From contig CAMYIN010000065.1 in assembly GCA_947258495.1 (NCBI GenBank), positions 1-47,287 on the forward strand: a DNA stretch of 47,287 bases. Reading direction: 5' to 3'. Made by a program: the position numbers and the translations under genes. Positions 4,454-27,965 of the stretch are shown here, piece after piece. This DNA comes from an uncultured Gammaproteobacteria bacterium (lineage in GTDB: Bacteria; Pseudomonadota; Gammaproteobacteria; Arenicellales; JAANXG01). Position 1 is the first letter of the stretch; the number at the start of each line of letters is the position of its first letter. The notes beneath the pieces were generated by a model. It had not been told where the DNA came from, did not search any database, and was given only the letters and a program-made list of their open reading frames with translations.

Positions 4454-5329
4454 ATGTACAAGATACTGGCCAGAGAGGACTTCTCCGACACGACCTTCAT
4501 GCTCGAGGTCCTTCACCCCATGCTGGCGAAGGCCGCAAAACCGGGGCAATTCGTCATCGTCATGGTGAACGCGGACGGAGAGCGGATACCACTGACGATC
4601 GCCGATTTTTCCGCCGAACGCGGCAGCGTAACCCTGGTGATCCAGGCGGTGGGCAAGACCACCAGGGAAATGCAGCAGCTGTGCAAAGTCGGCAGCGTCT
4701 TATACGCCTTGGTCGGCCCCATGGGCATCCCGAGTCACATCGGCGAGGTAAAAAAGGTCGCGTGCGTCGGCGGCGGACTAGGTGTGGCGCCGGTTTTCCC
4801 GCAGGCGCGCGCCTTCAAGCAACGCGGCGCCTTCGTCATCGGCATCATCGGCTTCCGCAGCAAGGAGTTGATTTTCTGGGAAGACAAATTCAAGAGCGTC
4901 TGCGACGAGCTCATCATCTGTACCGACGACGGGTCCGCCGGGATCAAGGGGCTGGTCACCGACGGCATCGCCCAGGCGATGCAAGCACATCCCGATATCG
5001 AGGAGGTCCTGGCCATAGGCCCGCCCGTGATGATGAAATTCTGTGCCGAGGCGACACGGCCCCAGGGCATCAAGACCATGGTGAGTTTGAATCCGATCAT
5101 GGTGGACGGCACCGGCATGTGCGGCGGATGCCGGGTGTCGGTGGGTGGAGAAATGAAGTTCTGCTGCGTGGACGGCCCCGACTTCGACGGCCATCAGGTG
5201 GATTTCGACGAACTCATGCGTCGTCTGGGCAGGTTCAAAGAAGAAGAACGGCGTTCGTTGGAACGCTGGACGAGCAACAGCAACTGTCGCTTGCTGCAGG
5301 AAGAACCCAGCGTGTCGACGCACGCCTAG
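4454..5329 (+). CDS. nfnA: NfnA/SudB-type ferredoxin-NAD(P)+ oxidoreductase small subunit
   Basis: This 291-residue protein matches the small subunit of NADH-dependent ferredoxin:NADP+ oxidoreductase, also annotated as sulfide dehydrogenase subunit SudB. An FAD-binding beta-barrel (about 1-95, with PGQFVIV) is followed by an NAD(P)-binding domain (about 100-210, with CVGGGLGVAPVFPQ) and a C-terminal [2Fe-2S] site. Cluster ligands fit the Asp-plus-three-Cys pattern of the family: D218, C223, C226 and C237 or C238. The frame is also open from TTG 4424, but ATG 4454 gives the expected N-terminus (MYKIL). It is followed 70 bp later by its large subunit, so they form an operon. In the known enzyme, NADH and reduced ferredoxin are coupled to NADP+ by electron bifurcation; a sulfide/polysulfide role is the alternative reading. 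Confidence 0.88.
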   Translation: MYKILAREDFSDTTFMLEVLHPMLAKAAKPGQFVIVMVNADGERIPLTIADFSAERGSVTLVIQAVGKTTREMQQLCKVGSVLYALVGPMGIPSHIGEVKKVACVGGGLGVAPVFPQARAFKQRGAFVIGIIGFRSKELIFWEDKFKSVCDELIICTDDGSAGIKGLVTDGIAQAMQAHPDIEEVLAIGPPVMMKFCAEATRPQGIKTMVSLNPIMVDGTGMCGGCRVSVGGEMKFCCVDGPDFDGHQVDFDELMRRLGRFKEEERRSLERWTSNSNCRLLQEEPSVSTHA

Positions 5330-5399
5330 TGCCTCACTGGCAAACAACCGGGAAACCCGCGAATCGCGTACATTGACTATCCCTCTGTAGAGATCGTTC

Positions 5400-6914
5400 A
5401 TGGCCAAGAAAACTATCCGCAACATCCCGCAGGAGCGCACGCCCATCGCAACCCAGGACGCGACCGGCAGGATCGGCAACTTCGACGAAGTCGCCCTCGG
5501 CTACAGCGACGACGACGCCCTGCTGGAAGCGGAACGCTGCCTCATGTGTCCGCAGGAGCCCTGCGTGGCGGGCTGCCCCGTGGGTATCGATATACCGGGG
5601 TTTATCCAAAGCATCATCGACAAAGACTTGCGCGCTTCCTACGACATACTCGCGGATTCCACCCTGCTACCGGCCATCTGCGGCAGGGTCTGCCCGCAGG
5701 AGGATCAATGCGAGGGCGTGTGCGTCGTGGGCAATCACCTGGAGCCGGTCGCCATCGGTCGCTTGGAACGTTTCATCGGCGACATGGCGGTTGCCGAGGG
5801 CTGGACCAGCAGTCCGGTCATCGAACCGAATGGTTATAAGGTGGCGATTGTGGGTGCAGGCCCGGCGGGCATCGCTTGCGCCGCGGATATGGCCAAGGCG
5901 GGTTGCGAGGTGACGATCTTCGAAGCCCTGCATCGCCCCGGGGGCGTACTCACCTACGGAATCCCCGAGTTTCGTCTGCCGAATCCGATCATTGATGCGG
6001 AATTTCAAAAGGTCCTCGAACTCGGTGTCAAGGTCGAGTGCAACACCTTGGTGGGAAGGCTGTTCACCGTCGAGCAAATGCGCGACGAAATGGGCTTCGA
6101 CGTCGTCTTCATCGGCACCGGAGCGGGTTACCCGAGCTTCATGGGTATACCGGGCGAATCGCTGAACGGCGTTCTCTCCGCGAACGAATTCCTCACTCGG
6201 TGCAACTTGATGCAAGCCGGCGAGTTCCCGCAGACGGACACCCCCCTGGGGCTCGGCCGCAAGGTGGCGGTCATCGGCGCCGGCAATACGGCGATGGACG
6301 CGATGCGGGTGTCGTTGCGGCTGGGGGCGGAAGAAGTGCACTGTCTTTACCGACGCACCAAAGCCGAGAGCCCGGCGCGGGTGGAGGAGCTGCATCACGC
6401 CAAAGAGGAGGGCGTGATTTTTCAGTGGCTGACCGCCCCGGTCGAGATTCTGGGCGACGACAACAACGACGTGCGCGCGGTGCGTTGCATGCGCATGGAG
6501 TTGGGCGAGCCGGATGCATCCGGACGACGTCGGCCGGTCCCCATCGCCAACAGCGAATTCGAGTTCGAGTGCGATACCGTGATCTACGCCATCGGCACCA
6601 ACGCCAACCCGATCATCGGACAGACCTCCAAGCTCAAGTTGAACAAGTGGGGATACATCGAGGCGGACAAGGAGCAGAGCACGTCCCTGGCGGGCGTGTT
6701 CGCGGGCGGGGACATTGTCACCGGTTCCGCCACCGTCATCCTGGCCATGGGTGCCGGCCGCCGGGCGGCGCAGAGCATGAAGATCTATCTGGGCATCAAC
6801 GACCTGGAAGACATGACGGTATCAGACCCGGAACGGCAACGCATCTTCGGCATAGATATCCGCCAGAAACGATTCAGCCGCGTGCGTCTCCCCGCCCAGG
6901 TCCACAGCGCCTGA
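5400..6914 (+). CDS. nfnB: NfnB/SudA-type oxidoreductase large subunit (GltD-like)
   Basis: The 504-residue protein is a GltD-family flavoprotein and the partner of the upstream small subunit. The N-terminal ~115 residues carry two cysteine clusters (CLMCPQEPCVAGCP and CGRVCPQEDQCEGVC) that bind two [4Fe-4S] centres. Then come a FAD Rossmann motif, GAGPAGIACA at about 152, and an NAD(P) motif, GAGNTAMDA at about 294; a C-terminal FAD-closing segment reads GVFAGGDIV. Length is slightly above the ~465-residue norm because of an N-terminal extension. It ends 28 bp before the convergently transcribed ferredoxin-fusion gene of the kor operon, a neighbourhood that supports a ferredoxin-linked function. 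Cytoplasmic. Confidence 0.9.
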   Translation: MAKKTIRNIPQERTPIATQDATGRIGNFDEVALGYSDDDALLEAERCLMCPQEPCVAGCPVGIDIPGFIQSIIDKDLRASYDILADSTLLPAICGRVCPQEDQCEGVCVVGNHLEPVAIGRLERFIGDMAVAEGWTSSPVIEPNGYKVAIVGAGPAGIACAADMAKAGCEVTIFEALHRPGGVLTYGIPEFRLPNPIIDAEFQKVLELGVKVECNTLVGRLFTVEQMRDEMGFDVVFIGTGAGYPSFMGIPGESLNGVLSANEFLTRCNLMQAGEFPQTDTPLGLGRKVAVIGAGNTAMDAMRVSLRLGAEEVHCLYRRTKAESPARVEELHHAKEEGVIFQWLTAPVEILGDDNNDVRAVRCMRMELGEPDASGRRRPVPIANSEFEFECDTVIYAIGTNANPIIGQTSKLKLNKWGYIEADKEQSTSLAGVFAGGDIVTGSATVILAMGAGRRAAQSMKIYLGINDLEDMTVSDPERQRIFGIDIRQKRFSRVRLPAQVHSA

Positions 6915-12727: not shown

Positions 12728-13765
12728 TTATTTTCCGGCCTCCGATTTCTTCTCGAGCTGGGCCATCTTCTTCTCCAGCGCCTTGAGTTTCTTGTTCAAG
12801 CCGGCGAAGTTGTACCACTGCTCGTCGGCCGCCGGGTAACTGATCTGCGACCCGTACACGCGCCAGGATTCGTCCCAATTGGCGACGTCTTGGAAGCCGA
12901 GCGCCCGCAGCTGGAGATAGGTCAACGTGGAGCGCGTTCCCGTCTGACAGTAGGCCAGGGTGCGCTTGGACTTATCCATGGAGCCGAAGGCCTTCTCGGC
13001 GGCGTCCGAGTCGAGATATGCCACCGGTTCCATCTTCCCACTCTTGGGGTTTTTTTCCTTCATCAGCGTATCGATATGCGACACGTTGACGGTGACGTTG
13101 GGCACGTGGCCGCCGCGGATGGCGCGTATGTCTTTTCCTATGAATTCCTTCTTGGTCCTGGAATCGACCAGCTGATTTTTCAGTTCGCCGGAGGCGATCT
13201 TGAGCACCTCGTCGGTCTCGCCGTATCTGCCCGCCATCACGTTCGCCTTGAAGGTGGTCGGCTCGCGCTTCACGAGTTTGTTGTCCAGGCGATAGCCGGC
13301 CTTGCGCCAGGCGTCCACACCACCGTTCAACACGTGCACCTTGTCGTGTCCGAGGTATTCCATGATCCAGAAACCGACGGTGGCATCCAGTAAGGTGCCG
13401 AGGTCTCCGCCGTAAAACACCACGTGGTCGTCATTGCCGATGCCGACGGCACCGAGGAGTTTTTCGTATTTCCCGGCGTCGCGGAAGACCCTGGAGGTGG
13501 CGTCGCGCAGCGCTTTTTTACAGCGATCACCAAAGCTGATGGCGCCGGGGATGTGGCCTTTGGCGTAGTCCTTCAGGCTGCGGCAATCGACGACAACCCA
13601 ATCGGCTTCGCCGGCATTAGCGTTGAGCGCCTCCGCCGTCATCAGCAGATCCGGGTTCGCCCACTTGGCCGCTGCCGGAGCCGATCCCAAAACGAACACA
13701 AGCAGGCCCAAAATTGCTCCAACCGTCGTTCGTGAACGCGCGTAATTTTCATCAACAAACTTCAT
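12728..13765 (-). CDS. Exported tandem-domain rhodanese (sulfurtransferase)
   Basis: The 345-residue product starts at ATG 13765, chosen because GGAGGG lies 8-13 bases upstream and a signal peptide follows directly (hydrophobic core about 14-26, cleavage near SAPAAA-KW). Two rhodanese domains follow: about 40-165, where the catalytic loop lacks cysteine (VVFYGGD), and about 180-310, with active-site C273 in YCQTGTRS. The C-terminal ~25 residues are a Lys/Glu-rich coiled coil. The family moves sulfane sulfur from thiosulfate or persulfides to acceptors; here it would act in the periplasm. An open frame continues upstream to 14011, but it overlaps the divergent GT2 gene and lacks a signal sequence position. 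A terminator follows at 12654-12683. Confidence 0.88.
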   Translation of the reverse strand: MKFVDENYARSRTTVGAILGLLVFVLGSAPAAAKWANPDLLMTAEALNANAGEADWVVVDCRSLKDYAKGHIPGAISFGDRCKKALRDATSRVFRDAGKYEKLLGAVGIGNDDHVVFYGGDLGTLLDATVGFWIMEYLGHDKVHVLNGGVDAWRKAGYRLDNKLVKREPTTFKANVMAGRYGETDEVLKIASGELKNQLVDSRTKKEFIGKDIRAIRGGHVPNVTVNVSHIDTLMKEKNPKSGKMEPVAYLDSDAAEKAFGSMDKSKRTLAYCQTGTRSTLTYLQLRALGFQDVANWDESWRVYGSQISYPAADEQWYNFAGLNKKLKALEKKMAQLEKKSEAGK

Positions 13766-13790
13766 CTCATGACCCTCCGAAAGACTCTTG

Positions 13791-13819
13791 TGAATAATCC
13801 AGAATACTCGCCCGTTTCT
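13791..13819 (+). promoter_or_regulatory. Imperfect ECF-type promoter candidate upstream of GT2 gene
   Basis: TGAATAAT (13791-13798), 14 bases, then CGTTTCT (13813-13819). This matches six of eight -35 bases and all of CGTTT, at the same 14-bp spacing as the sites at 23890-23916 and 25656-25683. It is 143 bp before the GT2 start. Confidence 0.3.
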
Positions 13820-13961
13820 TGTTTCCTGAAGATTTGTACTATTGTAGTCGACGCCTGGGAATGATTCATTTGCATCATTTGGCGGCTTGGTTCGCCGACG
13901 TTCCGCCCGCTTCCCAGGATCAAGCGGACTTTGACAACAACTATCGTCCGGCGTAGTCATC

Positions 13962-14957
13962 ATGAAACGCGGCAGAAATCCGAGCGTCTCCATCGTCATC
14001 CCGAACCGCAACGGCGGTGAAACCCTCGGCGATTGCCTTCGCGCCGCACTTGCGTCTCATTATCCCGATTTCGAGGTGATCGTGGTCGACGATTGTTCCG
14101 AGGACGACTCAGCGCGCATCGCCGAACGATACTCCTGCCGTCTCGTGCGGCTGAAAAAATCCGAGGGTGCCGGCAATGCTCGCAACCAGGGCGTACGACA
14201 TAGCCGTGGGGAGATACTTTTTTTTACGGATGCCGATTGCCTGTTGCAGCCTGGCGCGGTGGCCAGGGCTTGTGATGTCCTAACGTCGTCTTCGACCCCC
14301 CTGGTGGTCGGCGGCACCTATACTCGCCGCGCCGTGGACGACCGCTTTTTCAGTCATTTCCAGTCGGCGTTCATCCACTACTCGGAAACGAAACGCGCCG
14401 ACAATCCGGACTACGTAGCGACCCATGCCATGGCGCTGCGGGCGGACACCTTTCGTCAAAGCGGCGGGTTCTCACAATCTCTGCGTCCGATATTGGAGGA
14501 CGTCGAGCTGAGCCACCGTTTGCGGCGACAAGGTGTGAAGCTGATGGTCAATGCCGGTATTCAGGTCGGTCATATTTTTGATTTCTCTTTTCTCGGTTCA
14601 CTGCGCAATGCATTTCGCAAATCCATGTACTGGTCGAGATACTCCATCGAGCGCAGGGATCTGACGGCGGATTCCGGCACCGCCTCGATCGAGCTGAAAA
14701 CGAACGTGGCGATGCTTGTCCTGGGCTGGATCATGCTGGGCCTGTTCCTCGCCTCCGGAGCGGTTGCATGGTTGTGGCTGGCTGCCGGTGCGCAGACTTT
14801 GAACATCTGGATCAACAGGCATCTCCTGCGGGCGTTTCGCTACAGCGGCGACGCACTGTTTGCAGGCGGGGCAATGCTATATTATCTGCTTGTGTATCCA
14901 TTACCCGTGGGACTCGGAGCGTTCGTCGGTGCGATCCGATACTGGCTAGAAATATGA
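13962..14957 (+). CDS. Family 2 glycosyltransferase with C-terminal membrane segments
   Basis: This 331-residue GT-A enzyme starts with VSIVIPNRNGGETLGDCL, followed by VIVVDDCSEDDS and the sugar-nucleotide metal site FFTDADCLL (about 86-94). ILEDVELSHRLRRQG gives the downstream acceptor motif (ED and xRRQ). Two or three hydrophobic helices between about 243 and 325 suggest inner-membrane attachment and a lipid-linked or membrane-bound acceptor. Its TGA overlaps the ATG of the following radical SAM gene (ATGA at 14954), so the two are translationally coupled. Substrate sugar is unknown. There is only a weak ribosome-binding site before ATG 13962. Confidence 0.87.
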   Translation: MKRGRNPSVSIVIPNRNGGETLGDCLRAALASHYPDFEVIVVDDCSEDDSARIAERYSCRLVRLKKSEGAGNARNQGVRHSRGEILFFTDADCLLQPGAVARACDVLTSSSTPLVVGGTYTRRAVDDRFFSHFQSAFIHYSETKRADNPDYVATHAMALRADTFRQSGGFSQSLRPILEDVELSHRLRRQGVKLMVNAGIQVGHIFDFSFLGSLRNAFRKSMYWSRYSIERRDLTADSGTASIELKTNVAMLVLGWIMLGLFLASGAVAWLWLAAGAQTLNIWINRHLLRAFRYSGDALFAGGAMLYYLLVYPLPVGLGAFVGAIRYWLEI

Positions 14958-16042
14958 TCATGTATTCTCCCTGGCGGCATTGGCCCTCGGTGTTGTGGAA
15001 GCAACGACCGCTCCAGCTCACATTTTTCGTCACCCGCCGATGCAATGCACGCTGTCCTTTCTGCTTCTATCTCCGTGGAGCCCGCGCGCACGACGACGAC
15101 ACGTCGGAATTGAATTTGGAAGAAATCAAAAGGGTGTCCCGGTCGCTCAAGAACCTGCTGTGGCTCGCGTTCTCTGGTGGCGAGGTGTACTTGCGAAAGG
15201 AATTGGTGGAGATCAGTCGTATCTTCTATACCCAGAATCGCCCCGCCATCATGCTGTACCCGACGAATGGACTCATGCCGGAGCTGATCCGAGAACGTAC
15301 CGAGGAGATCCTGCAAAGCTGCCCCAGGAGCGTAGTTACGGTCAAGCTGTCCATCGACGGTTTGCATGATGAGCACGACCGTGTACGCAACACGCCCGGG
15401 AGCTTTGCCAAGATGCTGCAGACCTACGAGCGTTTGCACGGGCTGCTGGATGCCTATCCGAATTTCGAGCTCGGCGTCAACACCGTGTTTCTTTCCAAGA
15501 ACCAGGATCGGATGGATGCAATAATCGATTTCGTGGCTGCCATACAGGGTGTGCGGGTGCACACGATCTCGTTGGCGCGCGGAGACCTGGTCGACCCTTC
15601 CTACAAAGACGTGGACCTGGCCAAATATCGGACCGCCGCCGCGCGGTTGGCGAAAATGAGCGCCGACGGGCGTACCTACCGCTTTCGCGGCGCTCGGCTC
15701 AAGGCCGCCCAGGACGTCTTGCAGCGGCGGCTCATCCACGACACGGTGGAGGCGCAACGGCGCTTGATCGACTGCTATGCGGGCAGGGCCAATCTGGTGC
15801 TTACCGAGACCGGGGACCTCTACCCGTGCGAGATGCGCAGCGACCGTTTCGGTAACGTCAGGGATTACGGCTACGACGTCAACGCGGCGTGCCGAACGCC
15901 CCGCGCGCGACGTGTTCTAGACTCAATAGCGGACAAGGAGTGTTACTGCAGTCACGAGTGCTATTTCATGACGAATATTTTTTTAAACCCCGCTCTGTAT
16001 CCGCGACTGGCGCGCGAATATCGCCAGCTAAAGCACGCTTAG
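14954..16042 (+). CDS. Radical SAM protein with SPASM-like C-terminal cysteines
   Basis: The 362-residue protein begins at ATG 14954 within the ATGA overlap with the GT2 gene. The [4Fe-4S]/SAM motif is C-N-A-R-C-P-F-C (about 32-39), followed by FSGGEVYLRKEL, the usual SAM-binding GGE. The C-terminal third carries seven further cysteines (CYAG, YPCEM, KECYCSHECYF), typical of a SPASM or twitch domain binding auxiliary Fe-S clusters. Such enzymes modify peptides or small acceptors; coupling to a GT2 suggests surface-glycolipid or peptidoglycan-linked chemistry, but the substrate cannot be read. The frame is open back to 14768 inside the GT2 gene and that extension is rejected. Stop is TAG. Confidence 0.87.
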   Translation: MIMYSPWRHWPSVLWKQRPLQLTFFVTRRCNARCPFCFYLRGARAHDDDTSELNLEEIKRVSRSLKNLLWLAFSGGEVYLRKELVEISRIFYTQNRPAIMLYPTNGLMPELIRERTEEILQSCPRSVVTVKLSIDGLHDEHDRVRNTPGSFAKMLQTYERLHGLLDAYPNFELGVNTVFLSKNQDRMDAIIDFVAAIQGVRVHTISLARGDLVDPSYKDVDLAKYRTAAARLAKMSADGRTYRFRGARLKAAQDVLQRRLIHDTVEAQRRLIDCYAGRANLVLTETGDLYPCEMRSDRFGNVRDYGYDVNAACRTPRARRVLDSIADKECYCSHECYFMTNIFLNPALYPRLAREYRQLKHA

Positions 16043-16284
16043 TTAGACTCCCTCCGCTCTACCGGTCAGCGCACGCAGTAAGAGCTCCTGCGTCTGGTGA
16101 CCATCGATGTGTACCCGGTAGCGGTTGACGAGAACGAGTTCGAGCAAGATTTACCGCGACTCGCACCTGCAGGGATGCCGGCGCCGTGTTTGAATGAGTG
16201 TATTCTCAGCGTACCCCGGAGAATCGTGATCACATCAATGCTGCGTCAATCCGCAAATTCGTTGCGTACGGCGCCGAAATCGGT

Positions 16285-17820
16285 TCAGGCGCCCTTGCCC
16301 GCACCGAGCCGGCCCATGCCTTCAGCTTCGGTGTGAATGCTCGACGCCGATTGCGTGTTTCCACCGCTACCCTCTACCGCCTTGCGTTCGAACAGACGGT
16401 TCGTTGCCCACAGCCAGAACAAACCGCGTATTCCCTTGAGCGCGATAAGGCAATCGTTCCAGCTGCGGATCTGCAGCACGCGCTTGAACAGGAAGGAAGG
16501 GCGCGAATAGAAGTGTCGCAACGCCTTCTGGCGCAACCCCTGAATCTGCTCGCGGGTCATGGAGTAGGGGACGAAGGCCGCACCCTGATAGTTGTAGTCG
16601 GAGAGCCGGTCGGAGACCGTGCCGTATTTTCCGACGTTGTCGTGCAGATAGGTACCGGGGAAAGCGGTCAAGGCGTGAAAGTTCGCCAGATCCGGCGCGA
16701 GCTCGGCAGCGAACTCTATGGTCTTTACACCGTCCTCGTAGGTTTCGCCAGGGATGCCGAAAACAAAAGGCGTGCTCACCTTCAACCCGACCTTCTTGGC
16801 CGCCCGCACCGCCGCGCGAGTCTGGTCCAAGGTGATGCCTTTGCGCAGGGTATTGAGATTCTTCTGCACCCCGCTCTCGGCGCCGAGAAGAATGGCCCAA
16901 CAACCGGCGGCCTTCATCGCACGCAACAGGGGTTCGTCGACCTGGTTGACGCACGCCGAGGCGAACCAGGTGAAATCCAGGCGCCGCGCGCGGATTTCCT
17001 GTGTCAGCGCCATGGCGCGTCGATAGTCCGCGGCAAAGCTGTCGTCGACGAACTTGATCTCGCGGTAACCCATCTGCAAACACTGTTCGATCTCGTTGAC
17101 GACATTAGCGATGCTGCGAAAACGCACGCCGCGCGCGCCGCCCTGGCGCTCGCGGTCGATCTGAAAACAAAAGATGCAGCGCCGGCTGCAGCCCCGCGAT
17201 GTGAGCATGACCGCGACCGGCTTGCGCCGATAGGTCGCCGGCGGCGGTACACAGCGGTTCGGGTCGCCCAGCAGGTCGCGCGCGGGAAAAGGCAGGGCGT
17301 CCAGGTCCTCGATCAGCGGACGTGGCGGATTGGTGACGACGTGCCGCCCCTGTCTGTAGGCGACGCCCCGCACACCCTCCGGGCTGCGGCCCTGCTGCAA
17401 ACGTGCGACCAGCTCAGGTACCGTCTGCTCGGCCTCTCCGGTGACTACCGCATCGATGTGTCTGCCGCCGTTCCGCAGGCATTGTCCGCGCTTCGCGATG
17501 GGATAGGGCCCTCCCGCGCACACGAACACGTTCGGGTCGCGTTCTTTTATCGCACCCGCGGTCAGCGCCGCCCGCGGCCAGCCAAAGGCGGTGGCGTAGA
17601 TACCGGCGAAATTCGGTCGAAATGCCACGAGTTCGGCCATGAGTGCCTCATGATCGAGAAAAGCCCCATTCAAGAACTGGACCTCGTGTCCCGTCTGCCG
17701 CAGCGCCGCCGCCACGTACAGGGTGCCGAGCGGCTCCCAGTAATTGATTTGAAAGCCGGCGGTCTTGGCCGGGAACAGGTCCTCAGACCGCCACGCAGGG
17801 ATGATCAGTGAGCACTTCAT
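16285..17820 (-). CDS. B12-binding domain radical SAM protein
   Basis: The 511-residue protein has an N-terminal cobalamin-binding-like Rossmann domain (about 1-150, with GTLYVAAALRQTGHEV and VFVCAGGPYP) and a radical SAM core (about 190-410) with C-S-R-R-C-I-F-C. The segment VKFVDDSF-like (IKFVDDSFA) and GIPGETYED are typical of the class B/anaerobic-Mg-protoporphyrin-cyclase-like group. The C-terminus (about 440-490) is amphipathic to hydrophobic and may touch the membrane. The gene converges on the radical SAM gene upstream, leaving 240 bp without a gene between. Reaction unknown; methylation of an unactivated carbon or a rearrangement is typical of the family. Confidence 0.85.
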   Translation of the reverse strand: MKCSLIIPAWRSEDLFPAKTAGFQINYWEPLGTLYVAAALRQTGHEVQFLNGAFLDHEALMAELVAFRPNFAGIYATAFGWPRAALTAGAIKERDPNVFVCAGGPYPIAKRGQCLRNGGRHIDAVVTGEAEQTVPELVARLQQGRSPEGVRGVAYRQGRHVVTNPPRPLIEDLDALPFPARDLLGDPNRCVPPPATYRRKPVAVMLTSRGCSRRCIFCFQIDRERQGGARGVRFRSIANVVNEIEQCLQMGYREIKFVDDSFAADYRRAMALTQEIRARRLDFTWFASACVNQVDEPLLRAMKAAGCWAILLGAESGVQKNLNTLRKGITLDQTRAAVRAAKKVGLKVSTPFVFGIPGETYEDGVKTIEFAAELAPDLANFHALTAFPGTYLHDNVGKYGTVSDRLSDYNYQGAAFVPYSMTREQIQGLRQKALRHFYSRPSFLFKRVLQIRSWNDCLIALKGIRGLFWLWATNRLFERKAVEGSGGNTQSASSIHTEAEGMGRLGAGKGA

Positions 17821-17986
17821 GCGTACACCGTGTGTTTCTTGCGTCTCTGAGTTTCGATTATGCGGCGGGCCGCATGCGTTCCCTCCAAAGTTCGCGCATC
17901 GCCCTTAATGCGCATGCACACCACTCCGCATCCCGGCGTGGACGACGCGATCACGGACGAGATCCGCACCGCGCACACTCGCCGAA

Positions 17987-18199
17987 CTATTCCAGCAACT
18001 TTTTATAGTATTCCTCCATGTCGCTGCTCACGCCCTCGCTGGCCCCGCTGCCGCCTCCGGCGCTGGCGCCGTAACCGCCCGCCTCCGGCAACTCGAAAAA
18101 CCCGGGTTCGACCCCGGTGTGCGAGGACACACTGTAACCCAACAGTGATCCCACGAACGCGACTCCCACCGTCAGCACGATCCAGACACTATTTCTCAA
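17987..18199 (-). CDS. Tiny membrane protein, copy B of a paralogous pair
   Basis: A 70-residue protein with one N-terminal TM helix (about 5-24) ending in GYSVSS, a Gly/Ser-rich linker, and a charged tail SSDMEEYYKKLLE. The start is TTG 18199, supported by GGGAGGGCGGG about 7 bases upstream. It aligns without gaps over the first 31 residues with the neighbouring 18248-18433 product, and both end in the same SDM-x-EYY-x-x-L motif. It is the last gene of the minus-strand sulfur operon, 49 bp after its paralogue. I do not recognise the family; location next to tusA and yeeE suggests a membrane accessory for sulfur transport or transfer. Confidence 0.75.
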   Translation of the reverse strand: MRNSVWIVLTVGVAFVGSLLGYSVSSHTGVEPGFFELPEAGGYGASAGGGSGASEGVSSDMEEYYKKLLE

Positions 18200-18247
18200 T
18201 GTACCCGCCCTCCCAAGAACAATTTACACAGTCGCGTCCTGCGTCAC

Positions 18248-18433
18248 TCAATCGTCGCCTCTGAGCCTGGAGTAGTACTCCTGCATATCGTCACTCATTT
18301 CGGTCTTGATCCCCGCCTCGACGGATTTGCCGCCGATCATGCCGACCTCGATCATGGGTGACAGGCTGTAGCCGATGAGGAATCCAATAAATCCCGCGAC
18401 CATCACATTTACCGTCCACAGTGCGTTTTTCAT
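18248..18433 (-). CDS. Tiny membrane protein, copy A of a paralogous pair
   Basis: A 61-residue protein: TM helix at about 5-25, GYSLSP, a short linker, and the tail SDDMQEYYSRLRGDD. ATG 18433 is chosen over the upstream TTG 18463 because it gives an N-terminus (MKNALW) that matches the paralogue (MRNSVW). It lies 94 bp after tusA and 48 bp before its paralogue. N-in or N-out topology is not decided by the charges. The pair keeps an identical tail motif despite different linkers, pointing to a conserved binding partner for the tail. Function unknown. Confidence 0.75.
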   Translation of the reverse strand: MKNALWTVNVMVAGFIGFLIGYSLSPMIEVGMIGGKSVEAGIKTEMSDDMQEYYSRLRGDD

Positions 18434-18527
18434 TTCGTCATCACTCTCTATTTCCTCCGCCAACCCGAGTTAGCCGGTGCTACGCCACGAGCCGGCTCGG
18501 CTTACCATTTGCTCCGTAAGCCGCGGC

Positions 18528-18773
18528 TCAGGCCTTCTCGATATCCCAGATGAACTGGCCGCTCTCCTGCTTCCTGTTGATGATCTCGTCGCCCGTGGTC
18601 TCGCACATCGCGGCGATGGATTCGCCAGAAGACGGATTGTCGAAGACGACCTCGATCACGTCGCCGGACTGCACCTTGGAAAGTGCCTTTTTGGTGTATA
18701 TCTGCGGGTGCGGGCATACATAGCCTTTTACGTCCAGCACGTACACACCGTCGTCGCGCTTCGCAAACTTCAT
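18528..18773 (-). CDS. tusA: TusA family sulfur carrier protein
   Basis: This 81-residue protein has the family signature C20-P-H-P, in which the cysteine carries a persulfide. The fold order (beta-alpha-beta-alpha-beta-beta) is visible from alternating hydrophobic stretches, and length is typical. ATG 18773 follows GAGGAG by about 8 bases. It lies 33 bp after the YeeE/YedE transporter gene, an arrangement in which TusA receives sulfur taken up by the transporter. It acts in the cytoplasm, passing sulfur to DsrE-type proteins or to biosynthetic and oxidative pathways. The proximity of three small DsrE-like genes in the same operon supports this relay. Confidence 0.93.
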   Translation of the reverse strand: MKFAKRDDGVYVLDVKGYVCPHPQIYTKKALSKVQSGDVIEVVFDNPSSGESIAAMCETTGDEIINRKQESGQFIWDIEKA

Positions 18774-18806
18774 GATGTTTCTCCTCTTGGTATCAAACCT
18801 GAATGG

Positions 18807-20279
18807 TTACAAATCGCAGGAGGCGAACTCCTTCGCCATGCGCCGTTCCGTCCACCAGTTGAAAAATTTGACGCCGATGTAGGCGCCGCCGATCATGCCC
18901 AATCCGAACAGCCAGCCGGAGGTGTCGCCCTGCGCAACCCGGACGAAGAACGCGCCGACATTGCATCCAAGTCCGAGGCGCGAGCCGATGCCCATGAGGG
19001 CGCCGCCGATCATCGCCCAGATCGCGAGCTCGAGGGTGGGTTTCTTGAATTTGAACTCGTTGTGCAACAAGGCCATGACCGCCGCACCCCCGATCAACGC
19101 CAGGGACATCCAGTCTGCGGGGTTGATGGCCGGATTGGGGATCCCGTTCACCCAGCCGAAGTAGATGTTGTCCATGTTGTCGGCGCCCAGTTTGTTGAAC
19201 ACCCAGCCGACCCATTGGGCCTCCTGGGTGGTGACGTACCAGTATCCGGGGTCGAACACGGTGCCGTTGGCCGATATGCCGTAGTCGAATCCTATGCGTT
19301 CCAGCAGCGTGCCAGCGTTCTGCACGCCGAACTTTACGCGCAGGCCCTGCGTCACCAGCATCTGCAGACCGCAGAAGATGCCGAGCAGCAACCCCGCGAT
19401 CGCGGTGCGCCTGTTGGCGGTGATCATAGCCCAGTAGCCGGCCAGCTCGTCGTTAAAGGAGGTGTGGCCTCTCTCCTTTTCGCGCTTTCTCAGAAACGCG
19501 CGGCGCGACCAGCCGATGTACACCACGACCAAAAGCAGCGCCGCGGGAATGACCACGCCAACAAGCATATTCCCCGCAAACGCACCTGCAATGGAATCGT
19601 CCGCCAGACCGAACAGGGTGGCAAAGGTCAGGACCGGTTGGTTCCAGACGTATCCCGCCAGGTACTGGTCCACCCAGCCGTCACCGGCGTTGACGACCTC
19701 AGGCAGTCCTTTGGCCAGCGCCGACTGGTGCCACGAATCAGGCACCAGGTAGTTCGTCCAACCCGCCATGTCCGCAAACACCGCCTGGGTGACGCTGATG
19801 GAGAGAATCACGATCAAGGCGCTCATGTTGCCTTCGCCGGTCTTGTACAACGATCCGGAGGCGCAACCGCCGGCGAAAACCATGCCTACGCCGAAGATCA
19901 ACCCCGCTATGAAGGCGTGTACGCTGGTCGGTGCGGCGTGGAAGGTGCTCAAGCCCGTTGCCGTGACGAATGCGCTCACTGCCGCGAACAGCACTGTGGC
20001 GATCATGATACCTACGGCCATTCGCGGCACGCCCACTGCGAACAGATCCCGGAACGCGGAGGAAAAACAAAAGCGACCGTACTGAAGACACATGCCGTAA
20101 ATGAAACCGAACCAAAGATAGACGGAGAGGTAGATGTAGTACTCGTTGTACAAATAGGTGGCGATGCTGATTAAGGCGAAAAACGCTGCAATGCCGTATG
20201 CCCATAGGCGCTTCTTTCGCAGATCGTTTTCGACCTCGACCGCGTTTGTCGCGGCCACATCTATAGCAGTGGTACTCAT
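18807..20279 (-). CDS. YeeE/YedE (TsuA-type) sulfur compound transporter
   Basis: The 490-residue membrane protein has about 10-12 hydrophobic segments and the three cysteine motifs of the family: GRFCFSSAFRD (C71), GGCASGSLYKTGEGN (C139) and LGCNVGAFF (C439). In characterised TsuA proteins such cysteines line the thiosulfate path. ATG 20279 is chosen because it follows GAGGGGACC; the frame is open to 20366 but that region belongs to the upstream gene's end. It is 16 bp after the ArnT-like gene and 33 bp before tusA, so co-transcription is very likely. It probably imports thiosulfate or another sulfane-sulfur donor. Confidence 0.9.
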   Translation of the reverse strand: MSTTAIDVAATNAVEVENDLRKKRLWAYGIAAFFALISIATYLYNEYYIYLSVYLWFGFIYGMCLQYGRFCFSSAFRDLFAVGVPRMAVGIMIATVLFAAVSAFVTATGLSTFHAAPTSVHAFIAGLIFGVGMVFAGGCASGSLYKTGEGNMSALIVILSISVTQAVFADMAGWTNYLVPDSWHQSALAKGLPEVVNAGDGWVDQYLAGYVWNQPVLTFATLFGLADDSIAGAFAGNMLVGVVIPAALLLVVVYIGWSRRAFLRKREKERGHTSFNDELAGYWAMITANRRTAIAGLLLGIFCGLQMLVTQGLRVKFGVQNAGTLLERIGFDYGISANGTVFDPGYWYVTTQEAQWVGWVFNKLGADNMDNIYFGWVNGIPNPAINPADWMSLALIGGAAVMALLHNEFKFKKPTLELAIWAMIGGALMGIGSRLGLGCNVGAFFVRVAQGDTSGWLFGLGMIGGAYIGVKFFNWWTERRMAKEFASCDL

Positions 20280-20295
20280 GCTCTGGTCCCCTCGT

Positions 20296-22056
20296 TCATG
20301 TTTTTCTTGCGCGCTGGTAGATCTGTACGATGGTTCGATATCGGAACACGCCGCTGACCTGAGCAAATACCCGGGTCAACTCGTAATTCGCCAGGTCGCG
20401 GCGCAAAGGGCCGGGTAGATCCTGTGAATGATCGCTGGCGATGACGACGACGGTCTTATCGCTATCGGTATCCGTTCGCGGTACCGCCTGGTAGTACTCG
20501 GGCAGCGGAAACTCCCAGCTGAAACGGAGCGGCGAAGTGGCGATCCGGGGTGGGGGTGTGGCGTCGCCACCACCGGATTCACGGCGGTAGACGATCGGCT
20601 TGTGCGTAAACAGGTCCAGGATCGGCACCGAGATCGCCGGGTTGATGATCGAAAAACGCTGCGGGAGGGTGTAAACCTCGACGAGTTCTTCCGCGGTGGA
20701 ATTGAGGTACGCACCTGCCCGTTGCAGATTCACGGCGCTCATCGTCTGCAGGAAAACCAGGTGTCCCCATACGGCGACGACGAGGGACGAGGCCACCGCC
20801 GCAAGGGTAACGTAACGGCGCACCACGGCGTCTTTGATCGCGCTCAAACCGTAGGCGGCCATCAAGGCCAGCATGGGGAGCGCTATGACCGTGTACCGGA
20901 TCCGCTTCACCTCGAGCAGCAGCAACAGCAGCAACATCCACGATACGATCAAAAAGCGGAGGTCTCTGCGCCGCACCGCCACGAATACCGAAAAAAGCGC
21001 GGCGATCACCAGAAAAGGGTGTAATTGAAATAAGAACGTGGATATATAGCTCTCCCCCCAGCGGTGCAGTCCCGGCAGCTGGTAGGACATCAAGAATTTC
21101 ATCTGTGCGAGAAACAAATCACCCTTCCACAAAAACACCGGGATGACGATTACGGTCACAAAAGCGGCGAGCGCCAGCATGCGCCGCACCACCACGTTGC
21201 CCTGGCGGAAACCTTCGACGATGCCGATCACGGGAACGACGCTGAGCATCACCCAGTTCGAATACTTCGCCAACAATGCCAAGGTGATCGCCGCAGCAGC
21301 CAAGGCAAGTCGCGGCGCACCGCCCGCTTGCGCCGCACGCACGGTGGCAAACACCGCAAACGTGAGAACGCACATGCTGGGCACGTCGACCATTACCAAC
21401 GGAACCTGTACGAAAAGATACGGCATCGCCAGTAACAGCGCACCGGCCATCAAACCCAGAGATTTCGACCACAGGGCCCGGCCGATGAGATACGTGAGCA
21501 AAACCGTAGCGGCGAACAGGAATGTAGTCATCGCCTGGATGGCAACGCGCGACTCTCCGGCCGTTTTCATTGCGATTCCAAACAGAAACGGTACCAGGGG
21601 AAGATCGGTCCACGCGGGAATCGATTCGCCCCACTCGCGCAGGAAGTAAGCTGTCCCATAAAGCTCGATCTGTTTGGCCTGGGAAAAATATCGTGCACTG
21701 TCGACGATCACTTCCGGCTGTCGCCAGAATACGGCGCCGATTGCAAACGCCGACACAAACAGCAGCAGGGGCTGCCCATGGAGGCGCGCGGCTCGGAGAG
21801 CGAAAAAGTATGCCGCGGCCAAAGAGGCGCAGAGAACGGCGAAGAGCACAACAACGTCTGCGTCTGCGAACACCCATTGCCAACTCGTCAACCGATTGTC
21901 GTCCGCAGTGCGAAAAATAAACAACAACAAGAATATGCCTAGCGCTGTGAGGGCCACGAAAATGCAGCGCGGCAGGTACTCGCCGTGGATCGGCGATATG
22001 AAAGCGGGGAGTGCGCCGTCGCCCGCGGTATATTGGTTGACCGGGGCGCTGGACAT
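20296..22056 (-). CDS. ArnT-like family 39 membrane glycosyltransferase
   Basis: The 586-residue product has about 11-12 TM helices spread over residues 25-440 and a soluble C-terminal part of about 120 residues, the layout of dolichyl/undecaprenyl-phosphate-sugar glycosyltransferases (GT39/GT83). A charged loop after the first TM pair (DSARYFSQAKQIE) corresponds to the catalytic periplasmic loop. ATG 22056 is chosen; codons upstream to 22155 overlap the neighbouring small gene. The gene sits between the DsrE-like genes and yeeE with gaps of 47 and 16 bp, an odd position for a glycosyltransferase. It may modify an envelope glycolipid or protein; acceptor and sugar are unknown. Confidence 0.8.
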   Translation of the reverse strand: MSSAPVNQYTAGDGALPAFISPIHGEYLPRCIFVALTALGIFLLLFIFRTADDNRLTSWQWVFADADVVVLFAVLCASLAAAYFFALRAARLHGQPLLLFVSAFAIGAVFWRQPEVIVDSARYFSQAKQIELYGTAYFLREWGESIPAWTDLPLVPFLFGIAMKTAGESRVAIQAMTTFLFAATVLLTYLIGRALWSKSLGLMAGALLLAMPYLFVQVPLVMVDVPSMCVLTFAVFATVRAAQAGGAPRLALAAAAITLALLAKYSNWVMLSVVPVIGIVEGFRQGNVVVRRMLALAAFVTVIVIPVFLWKGDLFLAQMKFLMSYQLPGLHRWGESYISTFLFQLHPFLVIAALFSVFVAVRRRDLRFLIVSWMLLLLLLLEVKRIRYTVIALPMLALMAAYGLSAIKDAVVRRYVTLAAVASSLVVAVWGHLVFLQTMSAVNLQRAGAYLNSTAEELVEVYTLPQRFSIINPAISVPILDLFTHKPIVYRRESGGGDATPPPRIATSPLRFSWEFPLPEYYQAVPRTDTDSDKTVVVIASDHSQDLPGPLRRDLANYELTRVFAQVSGVFRYRTIVQIYQRARKT

Positions 22057-22103
22057 CGGCGTCGACTCGCTGCTCAACTTACCACGCACCGCAAATACGC
22101 CTC

Positions 22104-22307
22104 CTACGCCGTGGCATCCGTATCGTCGGGCGCCGCCTGCCAGGAGATCACGCAATCGTGGCTCTCGATCTTGTCGACGACTTCGGGGTAGGCGACGTCG
22201 CTGCCCGAAAAATCCATGACTTCGACACGGTGTCGCCTGGACTGGGTATCGATCATACGCGCCGCGTCCTCCCGGGAACCGTCAACCAATATATGCAGGA
22301 CATTCAT
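22104..22307 (-). CDS. Small DsrE/DsrH-superfamily-like protein (third of three)
   Basis: A 67-residue protein beginning MNVLHILVDG and carrying one cysteine (HDCVISW). The opening beta-strand and Asp/Gly turn resemble DsrH/TusB and DsrE-like proteins, but it is shorter than TusB (about 95 residues) and the assignment is weak. It follows the second DsrE-like gene by 31 bp and precedes the ArnT-like gene by 47 bp. If the three genes form a TusBCD/DsrEFH-like complex, this would be the smallest subunit; that is inference from size and gene order. Confidence 0.55.
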   Translation of the reverse strand: MNVLHILVDGSREDAARMIDTQSRRHRVEVMDFSGSDVAYPEVVDKIESHDCVISWQAAPDDTDATA

Positions 22308-22338: not shown

Positions 22339-22641
22339 TTACAACACGATGACCCGGTCGGCCTCGTGGTTCATCACCGCGTTGTCGAACTGACTGCCGC
22401 GCACGATGCTTTCCGGAACGCGACTGAGATCGACGGCATGTTCCTCCGCGCTGTGGCGGCACACGCTCATGGACACTCCATTCAACGCGCACAGATTGGT
22501 GAATTCCGTGTTCTGTATAAGGTGGGTGCCCGCGTCCATGGAAAAAATCGAGACCTGGTGGCCCTTTTCGTTCGCCGCCCGCGCGATGCCGACGACATGC
22601 TGCAGATGTCGATCGCTGTTAACCAGGATGCCCAGTTTCAC
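22339..22641 (-). CDS. DsrE-family small sulfur-relay-like protein (second of three)
   Basis: A 100-residue protein with the DsrE-type pattern: first strand KLGILVNSD, helix HVVGIARAANEKGH, strand QVSIFSMDAGTH, then two cysteines (FTNLCALNGVSMSVCRHSAEE) where DsrE proteins keep a conserved cysteine. Start is GTG 22641 after AGGGGACGGA. It lies 75 bp after the first DsrE-like gene. In the family this cysteine carries persulfide and exchanges it with TusA. The rest of the operon (tusA, yeeE) supports a sulfur relay role. Confidence 0.7.
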   Translation of the reverse strand: MKLGILVNSDRHLQHVVGIARAANEKGHQVSIFSMDAGTHLIQNTEFTNLCALNGVSMSVCRHSAEEHAVDLSRVPESIVRGSQFDNAVMNHEADRVIVL

Positions 22642-22716: not shown

Positions 22717-22989
22717 TCAGTATGGCAGGACATGGTCGTACTCCGGCATCCGGTTCGAGATCTGTTCGGTGCTCAGGTATTCGGCGTAGTCCTGGTCCCG
22801 CACGTCCGAGTAGATGGGCAATTCGAGTTCCCTGATGGTGTCCAAATTTGCGGCAATACTGTCCGTGCGATCGAGCCTGCGACTCAATACATAGACATCG
22901 ACACTGTCGTCCATCAGCGTCAGCCCAATCGACATACGGAGCGCCTCTTCCTGGCGGTCGGTGACGATAACAGCTATCTTTCTGGCCAC
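22717..22989 (-). CDS. DsrE-like small protein (first of three), no cysteine
   Basis: A 90-residue protein, KIAVIVTDRQEEALRMSIGLTLMDD-type N-terminus followed by VDVYVLSRRL, the strand-helix-strand pattern of the DsrE/DsrF superfamily. It contains no cysteine, so it cannot itself carry persulfide and would be a structural subunit, as DsrF/TusC-type subunits can be. Start is GTG 22989. It lies 124 bp downstream of the PAS-LuxR gene, in the same direction. Confidence 0.65.
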   Translation of the reverse strand: MARKIAVIVTDRQEEALRMSIGLTLMDDSVDVYVLSRRLDRTDSIAANLDTIRELELPIYSDVRDQDYAEYLSTEQISNRMPEYDHVLPY

Positions 22990-23113: not shown

Positions 23114-23776
23114 TCACGGCCACACCAAATCGTGCCGATAGGCGTAGGCCACGGCCTCTACCTGGCTGTGGACTCCCAACTTTTTCTGAATGTGCTGGAT
23201 GTGGTTTCGTGTCGTCGTCGCGCTGATGGTGAGGCGTTTCGCGATCACCGCCGCGGTGAGACCCTCCGCCAGCAACGCCAGCACCTGGTGTTCACGCGCG
23301 GTCAGACACGAGTCCGCGGGCCAGCATTTCGCCGGAGCGCCATTGTGTCGGCGCGGCGCCATCGAGGGATGCTTGTCCGACGCGTAGCTCAGGGAATCGA
23401 GGACATCTGGCTTACCGTTCCGGTGCAGCAGGTGGGCTACATTCCATTTATCTCTGCAACCCGACGGGATCAGCACGATGTTCACCGACAAGGTCAGCGA
23501 TTTCGCCCTGCTGTTGGTGACTTGAATCGAAAATCGGTTCGACGTGTCGCCTCCGTTACCGAGGCGTGCCACACGGCAATTGTGGCGGCAGAGAGAAGAC
23601 CGTGTCACCGGATCGCAGCCCTGCAGTACGTCGCAGCACGGCTTGCCCAACACCGAGTCCGAGGCGTAGCCCAACAAGTGCTCGCAGCCCTGGTCCCAAT
23701 AAATGATGCGCTGCATCGAATCGACAGCGAAGGCGCCATCGACCGCGCGATGCAGTACCTGACTCAAAGTTGGCAT
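23114..23776 (-). CDS. PAS-LuxR transcription regulator with six-cysteine sensor
   Basis: The 220-residue protein has a PAS domain (about 10-125) and a LuxR/GerE helix-turn-helix (about 155-217, LTAREHQVLALLAEGLTAAVIAKRLTIS). The PAS part holds C31, C47, C48, C54, C63 and C67, with the last five in a pattern seen in a family of PAS domains and suited to Fe-S binding or thiol redox sensing. ATG 23776 follows AGGGGTCGC and gives a natural PAS start; the open frame upstream to 23878 is rejected. It heads the minus-strand sulfur operon and has an ECF-type promoter candidate at 23890-23916. I infer a redox- or sulfur-responsive activator of this operon. Confidence 0.85.
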   Translation of the reverse strand: MPTLSQVLHRAVDGAFAVDSMQRIIYWDQGCEHLLGYASDSVLGKPCCDVLQGCDPVTRSSLCRHNCRVARLGNGGDTSNRFSIQVTNSRAKSLTLSVNIVLIPSGCRDKWNVAHLLHRNGKPDVLDSLSYASDKHPSMAPRRHNGAPAKCWPADSCLTAREHQVLALLAEGLTAAVIAKRLTISATTTRNHIQHIQKKLGVHSQVEAVAYAYRHDLVWP

Positions 23777-23889
23777 TCGGTGCGACCCCTGGTCATTAAT
23801 AGTCTTATAGAAAAACTCTGCTGCAATCGAAACCGCCGACCTGCTCCATTGCTTCGAGATAATGCCGATTGCAACCACTACCCTAGTAG

Positions 23890-26297: not shown

Positions 26298-27965
26298 ATG
26301 GCGGCTGTAAACAGAAAATGGACCGACGGGATGCTCCACACCGAGGACTGGTGGGCGGTCTGGCTGGGATTGATCATGTTCTTTGCCGGGCTACTCACCA
26401 TCTGGGGTGTGGATCTCGTCGGCTGGATGACCAAGACCAAGACCTGGGAATGGGGCAAGTTCTGGAGTGATCCCTCCTTTAACAAGCTGCTCGCAGCTGC
26501 GCACACGAAAGAGGGCCAGGCTTACGCGGGTATGGGCGGCTTTGCTTCGCTGTTGGTGACCTATATCGTTTTCACCGCGCTCACCTGCATCGGCGCCTAT
26601 TTTCAGAAACTGGACGTGAAGAAGTTCTTCATGGGCTTCACCTGCATCTTCTTTATTACCTGGGGGGCGTGGATCATTGGCCACGAAGCGCACTTCAAGG
26701 CGCTGAAAACGGGCCAGTCCATCACGCAGGCCGAGATATACGGCGACAATGTGTTCTGCACGACCAAGGTCAACAAGTGCTCGGCGCAGATCAACAAGGC
26801 GCTCAAAGGCATGGGCGTCGACGTCATGGCCGGCCAGGTGCCCACGCAGGAGCAGGCGGCGGCAGCGGTGGGTAAGTCCAAGAACGCGATACGTATGTCC
26901 TGGGGCCTGCAGCTTGGCGGCGGCTTCTCCTACATGCTGGCGCTGGCGGTGGGATTGATTATCGGTAATTTATTCAAGGGATTCGCCGGATTTCTCAAAG
27001 AGGGGGCGAAGCCCGAGTGGTTCATCAAGACCGCGATCGTCTATCTGGGCATCAAGCTGGGGCTGATGTCGATGAAGGCCGCCGGCTTTGCCTTGGAGTT
27101 GGCGCTGGCCGGTGCTGCCGCCACCTTCGTCGCCTACCTGTTGTTCTGGCCGATCGTCTACTGGATGGGGCGCAAGCTGTTCAGGCTTCGGCGCGACGCC
27201 TCGGCGGTGCTGTCCTCGGGCATTTCCATCTGCGGTGTGTCGGCGTCCATTGCCACCGCCGGCGCGATCCGTGCCAAACCAATCCTGCCGATCGCGGTGT
27301 CCATGCTGATCGTGGTCTTCGCCATGATCGAGTTGGTGATCCTGCCGACGTTCTACGCCACGGTGGCGCCGGGACAGCCCATCGTCAACGGCGCGGCCAT
27401 GGGCATGACGGTGAAGACCGACGGCGCCGACGCGGCCGCCGGCGCCATCCTCGATGAAATGATGGTGGCCAACCACTACCGGACTACGGGCGAGACCTGG
27501 GAGGCGGACTGGATCCTGAGCGCCGCCATCCTCACCAAGATCTGGATAGACGTGTTCATCGGCGTGTGGGCGTTCGTACTCGCCCTGATCTGGGTCTACA
27601 AGGTGGAGCGAAGACCGGACCAGGACCACGTCGGCGCATCGGAGATCTGGTTCCGGTTCCCGAAATTCGTCATCGGCTATTTCATTGCCTGGCTGACCTA
27701 TGTGGCGATCGCGGTGTGGTTTCCGGACGCCATCAAGGCCGCGTCCTCCGGTGCCGGCGTGGTGCAGAGTCCGATGCGGAAGATGATGTTCATGCTGACG
27801 TTCGTCGCCATCGGCGTCATCACCGACTTCAGTAAGCTCAAGGGCATGGGCAGGCTGACGGTGTTGTACGCGATTGCGCTGTTTATCGTCATTGCCCCCA
27901 TAGCCTACTTCGTGGCATGGATCTTCCACCACGGCATGATGCCGCCGATCGCGCAAGCGGGTTAA
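26298..27965 (+). CDS. YeiH-family putative sulfate/sulfite exporter, long form
   Basis: The 555-residue membrane protein has the YeiH signature SSGISICGVSASIATAGAIRAKP (about 305-327) and at least 11 hydrophobic segments. E. coli YeiH is about 350 residues; this one has an extra N-terminal region of about 190 residues with three TM helices and a soluble loop (about 130-185) containing two cysteines. ATG 26298 has an ideal GAGGAGGT site. The family is thought to export an anion such as sulfate or sulfite. Upstream small genes and the ECF-type promoter suggest induction when oxidised sulfur accumulates. Confidence 0.87.
   Translation: MAAVNRKWTDGMLHTEDWWAVWLGLIMFFAGLLTIWGVDLVGWMTKTKTWEWGKFWSDPSFNKLLAAAHTKEGQAYAGMGGFASLLVTYIVFTALTCIGAYFQKLDVKKFFMGFTCIFFITWGAWIIGHEAHFKALKTGQSITQAEIYGDNVFCTTKVNKCSAQINKALKGMGVDVMAGQVPTQEQAAAAVGKSKNAIRMSWGLQLGGGFSYMLALAVGLIIGNLFKGFAGFLKEGAKPEWFIKTAIVYLGIKLGLMSMKAAGFALELALAGAAATFVAYLLFWPIVYWMGRKLFRLRRDASAVLSSGISICGVSASIATAGAIRAKPILPIAVSMLIVVFAMIELVILPTFYATVAPGQPIVNGAAMGMTVKTDGADAAAGAILDEMMVANHYRTTGETWEADWILSAAILTKIWIDVFIGVWAFVLALIWVYKVERRPDQDHVGASEIWFRFPKFVIGYFIAWLTYVAIAVWFPDAIKAASSGAGVVQSPMRKMMFMLTFVAIGVITDFSKLKGMGRLTVLYAIALFIVIAPIAYFVAWIFHHGMMPPIAQAG

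Follow-up and report, generated by a model that had tools for sequence, protein, structure and literature searches.

Two small genes, here called A and B, which lie directly downstream of yeeE-tusA in the window (the whole 47,287-nucleotide stretch of DNA analyzed here, from an uncultured Gammaproteobacteria bacterium, contig CAMYIN010000065.1), are real, are paralogous, and belong to a specific gene module. The host system, i.e., sulfur import by YeeE, TusA, and DsrE, is already known, and the A/B family is new. Our preferred reading, to which we give a probability of roughly 0.4, is that the two products assist YeeE as accessory proteins and that their tails, in the periplasm, would dock a sulfur donor, probably an exported rhodanese.

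The Tandem Genes A and B

The positions of the two genes are reported in Table 1. The ATG of B lies 94 nt downstream of the stop codon of tusA, and the TTG start codon of A is preceded, about 8 nt upstream, by the sequence GGGAGG. The B sequence can be outlined as MKNALWTV...GYSLSPMIEVGMIGG...DMQEYYSRLRGDD and that of A as MRNSVWIV...GYSVSSHTGVEPGFFELPEAGGYGA...DMEEYYKKLLE. The two N-termini are alike, both in the first residues (MRNSVWIV in A, MKNALWTV in B) and in the following GYSVSS (A) or GYSLSP (B).

The first-pass annotation had described a tandem pair of paralogous small membrane proteins with similar N-termini; this is borne out by the open reading frames of Table 1, by the homology of the A and B profiles (hhalign probability 99%, E 3e-18), and by the maintenance of the pair in 16 genomes. 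It had also described an identical tail. The motif DM-[EQ]-EYY-x-[KR]-L is indeed common to both proteins, but the tails, ending in SSDMEEYYKKLLE (A) and SDDMQEYYSRLRGDD (B), are not strictly identical: the S preceding DM is differently placed in B, and S-DM is not shared.

The alignments of A and B (15 rows each) have a mean column identity of 59–60% across nine families. A harbors an additional segment after the helix, TG-x-EPG-x-F, whose defined residues are invariant in its 15 rows together with YG and the tail YY (15/15), while the second tail Tyr, and with it the full EYY motif, is gone from B in the most divergent lineages. No Cys occurs in any of the 15 A and 15 B sequences. Moreover, the median pN/pS among six genomes of the family of the window is 0.19 for A and 0.23 for B; with values of about 0.2, both genes are under purifying selection, and their conservation and pN/pS rule out that they are chance frames. 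Genes of 183–213 bp are not unusually small for modern gene finders.

Probing Pfam and NCBIfam, known precursor families included, did not retrieve any match to A or B up to an E-value of 1, in agreement with the earlier statement that no described family was known for them. The A profile did not match any PDB chain, and no small partner of YeeE came to light in literature searches. In the libraries and papers covered, this protein family and its extended cluster thus seem not to have been described.

Organization of the Surrounding Genes

The genes of the window were mapped onto 15 loci, open reading frames were clustered all against all, and a sixteenth locus was added; together, these data reveal one module. 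The module has the order luxR, dsrE-like, dsrE, tusB-like, PMT_2 glycosyltransferase, yeeE, tusA, B, and A, followed by a FAD oxidoreductase (in 12 of the 15 loci), the B12-binding radical SAM gene, the radical SAM and GT2 genes on the opposite strand, and the tandem rhodanese. In the dsrEFH-type trio, one gene matches DsrE (E 6e-6) and the other two gave no Pfam match. The YeeE alignment shows conserved Cys. Three loci (L054, L057, and L060) gave no match to the dsr trio at its usual place and have the rhodanese upstream.

Table 1. Coordinates of the genes of the module in the window and of the type C loci.
Feature	Position	Strand	Evidence and remarks
B, 61 aa, one helix, first of the pair	18248..18433 with stop (18251-18433 without)	minus	ATG start
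A, 70 aa, one helix, second of the pair	17987..18199 with stop (17990-18199 without)	minus	TTG start
tusA, cytoplasmic sulfurtransferase (CPHPQIY)	18528..18773	minus	Pfam TusA PF01206, E 9.5e-18; 5' of the pair in all loci
yeeE, long (490 aa) YeeE/YedE-family sulfur transporter	18807..20279	minus	Pfam Sulf_transp PF04143, E 5e-41
Membrane glycosyltransferase, PMT_2/GT39-like	20296..22155	minus	Pfam PMT_2, E 2e-9; start codon uncertain; syntenic in all loci
Small dsrH/tusB-like protein of dsrEFH-type-II-like trio	22104..22307	minus	Position and literature; syntenic; no Pfam match
DsrE-family protein	22339..22641	minus	Pfam DsrE, E 6e-6
Second DsrE-like protein	22717..22989	minus	Position; syntenic; no significant family match
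PAS-LuxR regulator, head of the cluster	23114..23878	minus	Pfam GerE and PAS; syntenic in 11 loci
B12-binding radical SAM enzyme, 3' of A	16285..17820	minus	Pfam; in pair-positive genomes only
Radical SAM protein, weak SPASM match	14840..16042	plus	Pfam; syntenic
Family-2 glycosyltransferase (GT2)	13962..14957	plus	Pfam; syntenic
Tandem rhodanese, signal-peptide-like N-terminus, basic C-terminal helix-like extension (NKKLKALEKKMAQLEKK)	12728..13780	minus	Pfam Rhodanese, two stretches; alignment; phmmer to thiosulfate sulfurtransferases
Type C loci, after YeeE2	L127-L136, L152		
Type C locus L061	4715-5080	minus	
Type C locus L119	~5143-5457	plus	

In positions 12728-22155 of the window and in the syntenic loci, the genes for sulfur import are tied to those for PMT_2, GT2, the FAD oxidoreductase, and two radical SAM proteins, and this module looks like a biosynthetic pathway. 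Just past the sulfur cluster, a putative membrane transporter (Pfam Cons_hypoth698, YeiH-like) is encoded on the plus strand (26298-27965).

Phylogenetic Distribution of the Pair

A pattern scan of GTDB contigs retrieved B, with 66–74% identity, from five gammaproteobacterial MAG loci, each of which (5/5) also harbors A in tandem. Within the family of the window, the pair is present in 6 out of 13 genomes. A combined profile retrieved it from nine further genomes belonging to eight other families of the class, and a tenth came from a search around one of these nine. Overall, the tandem pair lies directly 3' of yeeE-tusA in 16 of 16 loci, corresponding to 16 genomes (counted as such, and not as independent evolutionary events) of nine gammaproteobacterial families. 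Hence, homologues near sulfur genes and the corresponding frames in relatives, both of which had been singled out for checking, were found, and the proposed tie to tusA/yeeE is strict.

Of 369 genomes drawn from the class, exactly the 10 with a YeeE at least 70% identical to that of the window harbor the pair (10/10 versus 0/359). Seven genomes harbor a YeeE about 50% identical, in a different gene order (tusA'-yeeE-tusA-dsrE-dsrE-tusB; the upstream tusA' was unseen in L085), and none of them has the pair (0/7). The B12-binding radical SAM gene is confined to pair-positive genomes (9/10; in the remaining one, the contig ends soon after A). Taken together, the pair-less YeeE-TusA clusters and this restricted distribution show that A and B are a feature of a specific module, and not of YeeE-TusA in general; the seven clusters rule out that the pair is a general partner of any YeeE-TusA. 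A draw of 329 genomes of the phylum contained the pair only in the window's own genome.

Some matches and absences were discarded. Weak matches in three genomes (G169, G380, and G595) look like chance ones, falling inside other or broken frames, and no loss of the pair is demonstrated in G001, where the contig carrying part of the flanking module stops before the expected site. As a separate observation, loci L082-L088 represent an alternative YTD arrangement devoid of the small pair, most of them with the extra upstream tusA'.

A dsrA match was found in all the pair-positive genomes but one (72% complete), fragmentary in some of them. Six genomes of the window's family (G001-G004, G007, and G011) harbor a dsrA-type gene scoring about 477 bits, accompanied in most of them by another, full-length gene scoring about 640 bits, which suggests the existence of two Dsr systems in these organisms.

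The strict co-occurrence of the pair with the B12-binding radical SAM gene, always beside A and B where the contig reaches, raises the main alternative to our reading. According to it, A and B would be a pair of ribosomal peptides anchored in the membrane and serving as substrates of the B12-radical SAM enzyme, the radical SAM/SPASM-like enzyme, or the glycosyltransferases; the sulfur needed for their modification would come from YeeE, TusA, the DsrE proteins, and the rhodanese. In every locus with coverage, synteny extends to the second radical SAM, GT2, and GT39-like genes, and tandem small paralogues with short conserved motifs and variable linkers resemble precursor peptides. However, A and B have no Cys and match no known precursor family, and conservation extends over their helix in addition to their tail; we regard this explanation as unlikely.

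Type C Proteins and the Tandem Rhodaneses

The combined profile also matched, in two genomes of the family, a frame next to a second YeeE (YeeE2, about 399 aa). It encodes another one-helix mini-protein, named type C, which lies immediately 3' of yeeE2 in the window's own genome (contig C103) and in the other genomes of the family bearing YeeE2. The likeness of type C to A and B resides in tail motifs: in the window's family, the tail carries repeats of the EAGGYG type (the GGYG motif of A), and in five genomes of the same genus the C-terminus has a motif of the DMEEYYKRL type resembling that of A.

Across the class, type C follows YeeE2 (at least 55% identity) in 11 of 11 loci. Outside the family of the window, most of the type C tails carry SPC(G/S)L repeats, and one genome (G370) has a GGYG tail. 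Among YeeE2 sequences of 52–53% identity, four out of six (L137, L138, L139, and L141) are followed by a small one-helix protein ending in CAPCGAPCPS, and below 50% no such mini-protein was seen. None of these type C flavours matched Pfam or NCBIfam above the cut-off. In many genomes, DUF6969 and a rhodanese come after type C.

At the type C loci of the window's family, no match was found to the tusA, radical SAM, or glycosyltransferase genes of the main module. The presence of the same tail motifs beside YeeE2, away from these putative modifying enzymes, is a further argument against the modified-peptide explanation.

A tandem rhodanese is encoded in both the A/B module and the YeeE2 module; in either case, its N-terminus resembles a signal peptide and its active-site Cys is intact. 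The two differ at the C-terminus: a basic extension, with a net charge of +5 to +8, is present in 8 out of 8 rhodaneses of the A/B module and in none (0/9) of the YeeE2-module type. Its charge is opposite to that of the acidic A and B tails, and a charge-based docking of the tails on the rhodanese may be suggested from the sequences. Among the genomes searched, only four, all with a type C of the Cys type, yielded a YeeE2-module rhodanese (at least 48% identity); at the same threshold, it was absent from the family of the window and from G370, both with a GGYG-type C, and from G465, whose type C is of the Cys type. This pattern fits a tail that follows its donor, in a small sample from which G465 departs.

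Predicted Topology and Possible Role of A and B

The hydrophobic stretch of the aligned A and B proteins (15 of each) begins within residues 4–11, and at least one K or R precedes it in nearly all of them. All tails except that of the B protein of locus L052 have a net acidic character. By the positive-inside rule, the positive charge before the helix and the acidic tail predict an N-in/C-out topology with a periplasmic tail. In the AF2 models of both proteins, which are of low confidence (mean pLDDT 61–64), a disordered linker separates one long helix from a short one that covers the tail motif.

The predicted topology bears directly on the earlier proposal that the tail may dock on TusA; in this alternative, tails in an N-out/C-in arrangement would bind cytoplasmic TusA and recruit it to YeeE. 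The position of B directly 3' of tusA would agree with this idea, and the conserved Tyr and Leu of the tail could form a docking helix. Nevertheless, the charge asymmetry predicts a tail on the side opposite to TusA, the seven YeeE-TusA clusters mentioned above are devoid of the pair, and loci without a tusA match harbor type C, which shares these tail motifs. For these reasons, docking on TusA is not supported and we consider it very improbable; the other partner proposed by the first-pass annotation, YeeE, is a possible docking site, near its outer face.

Our preferred reading assigns A and B an accessory role at the YeeE transporter. In each protein, a flexible linker would join the N-in/C-out transmembrane helix to a periplasmic tail that is short, acidic, and helical. 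The helix would be placed beside YeeE, and the tail would keep a sulfur donor of the periplasm at the channel mouth. The most likely donor would be the tandem rhodanese exported from the same cluster, which bears the basic extension at its C-terminus; from it, sulfur would cross YeeE and reach TusA and the carriers of the DsrE type. Since they have no Cys, A and B cannot relay a persulfide themselves, and a role as persulfide carriers is ruled out.

Several observations argue for the accessory reading: the place of the pair directly 3' of yeeE-tusA in all 16 loci, its coincidence with YeeE of at least 70% identity, the charge asymmetry, the short helix on the tail in the AF2 models, the association of type C with YeeE2, the presence of a tandem rhodanese with a signal-peptide-like start in both modules, the basic extension of opposite charge to the acidic tails, and the absence of the YeeE2-module rhodanese from the examined genomes with a GGYG-type C. 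Other data count against it: seven genomes with YeeE of the ~50% type, TusA, and DsrE manage without the pair, so that YeeE function does not generally require it; the tie of the pair to the B12-radical SAM/glycosyltransferase module is as strict as its tie to YeeE; the Cys-type C of G465 lacks a matching rhodanese; and the EYY motif is lost from divergent B tails.

The same genomic evidence is compatible with A and B being assembly or stability factors of a membrane complex of YeeE, or of the glycosyltransferase, with tails making no contact with a donor. Larger membrane complexes are often stabilised by single-helix mini-proteins. Yet the strong conservation of the linker and tail in A (TG-x-EPG-x-F, YG, and YY) suggests more than a helix-only role, and this explanation appears doubtful.

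If the accessory reading is extended to type C, then A, B, and type C could represent one class of exchangeable membrane-tethered periplasmic arms coupling an exported rhodanese to a YeeE channel. A persulfide would be relayed by arms with Cys repeats (SPCGL, APCGAPC), those of the Tyr/Gly kind (EAGGYG, EYY) would serve for docking only, and a change of rhodanese partner would bring an exchange of the tail. This generalization is speculative, and we hold it to be rather unlikely.

Comparison with Known Systems

KdpF, CydX, and AcrZ are single-helix accessory mini-proteins of membrane complexes. A and B resemble them in being tiny one-helix proteins encoded beside, or working with, a large membrane protein (no sequence relation is claimed), and differ from them in having conserved tails that are predicted to be periplasmic. 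As for the YeeE-YeeD (TsuA-TsuB) system, we know of no small single-helix partner. This system of E. coli and Spirochaeta (PMC11073785) shares with the module described here a YeeE-family transporter and a TusA-like cytoplasmic partner. The YeeE of the window is 490 aa long, versus 330–350 aa for TsuA/SoxT (PMC11582611).

The yeeE-tusA-dsr part of the module corresponds to the YTD cluster (yeeE-tusA-dsrEFH type II), as presented in the passages searched of PMC13293266 and PMC13047784. Both occur in dsrA-bearing organisms and combine a YeeE/YedE transporter with TusA; the DsrE-like trio of the YTD cluster has a putative counterpart here, in which one gene matches DsrE. Compared to the cluster in those passages, which mention no small membrane pair, the module described here additionally includes A and B, a PMT_2 gene between the dsr genes and yeeE, the radical SAM genes, GT2, and the exported rhodanese.

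Finally, the hand-over of sulfur from the periplasm to YeeE-type importers in sulfur oxidisers is discussed as an unresolved step (PMC11582611). The SoxT transporters of Hyphomicrobium described there are also YeeE-like and import sulfur for oxidation, and a periplasmic, DsbA-like protein is proposed to present the sulfur to them. In that case the proposed donor is thioredoxin-like, whereas here it would be an exported tandem rhodanese assisted by membrane-tethered tails. Conserved, undescribed one-helix proteins with predicted periplasmic tails, lying beside two YeeE subfamilies each tied to an exported rhodanese, are thus candidates for this hand-over step.
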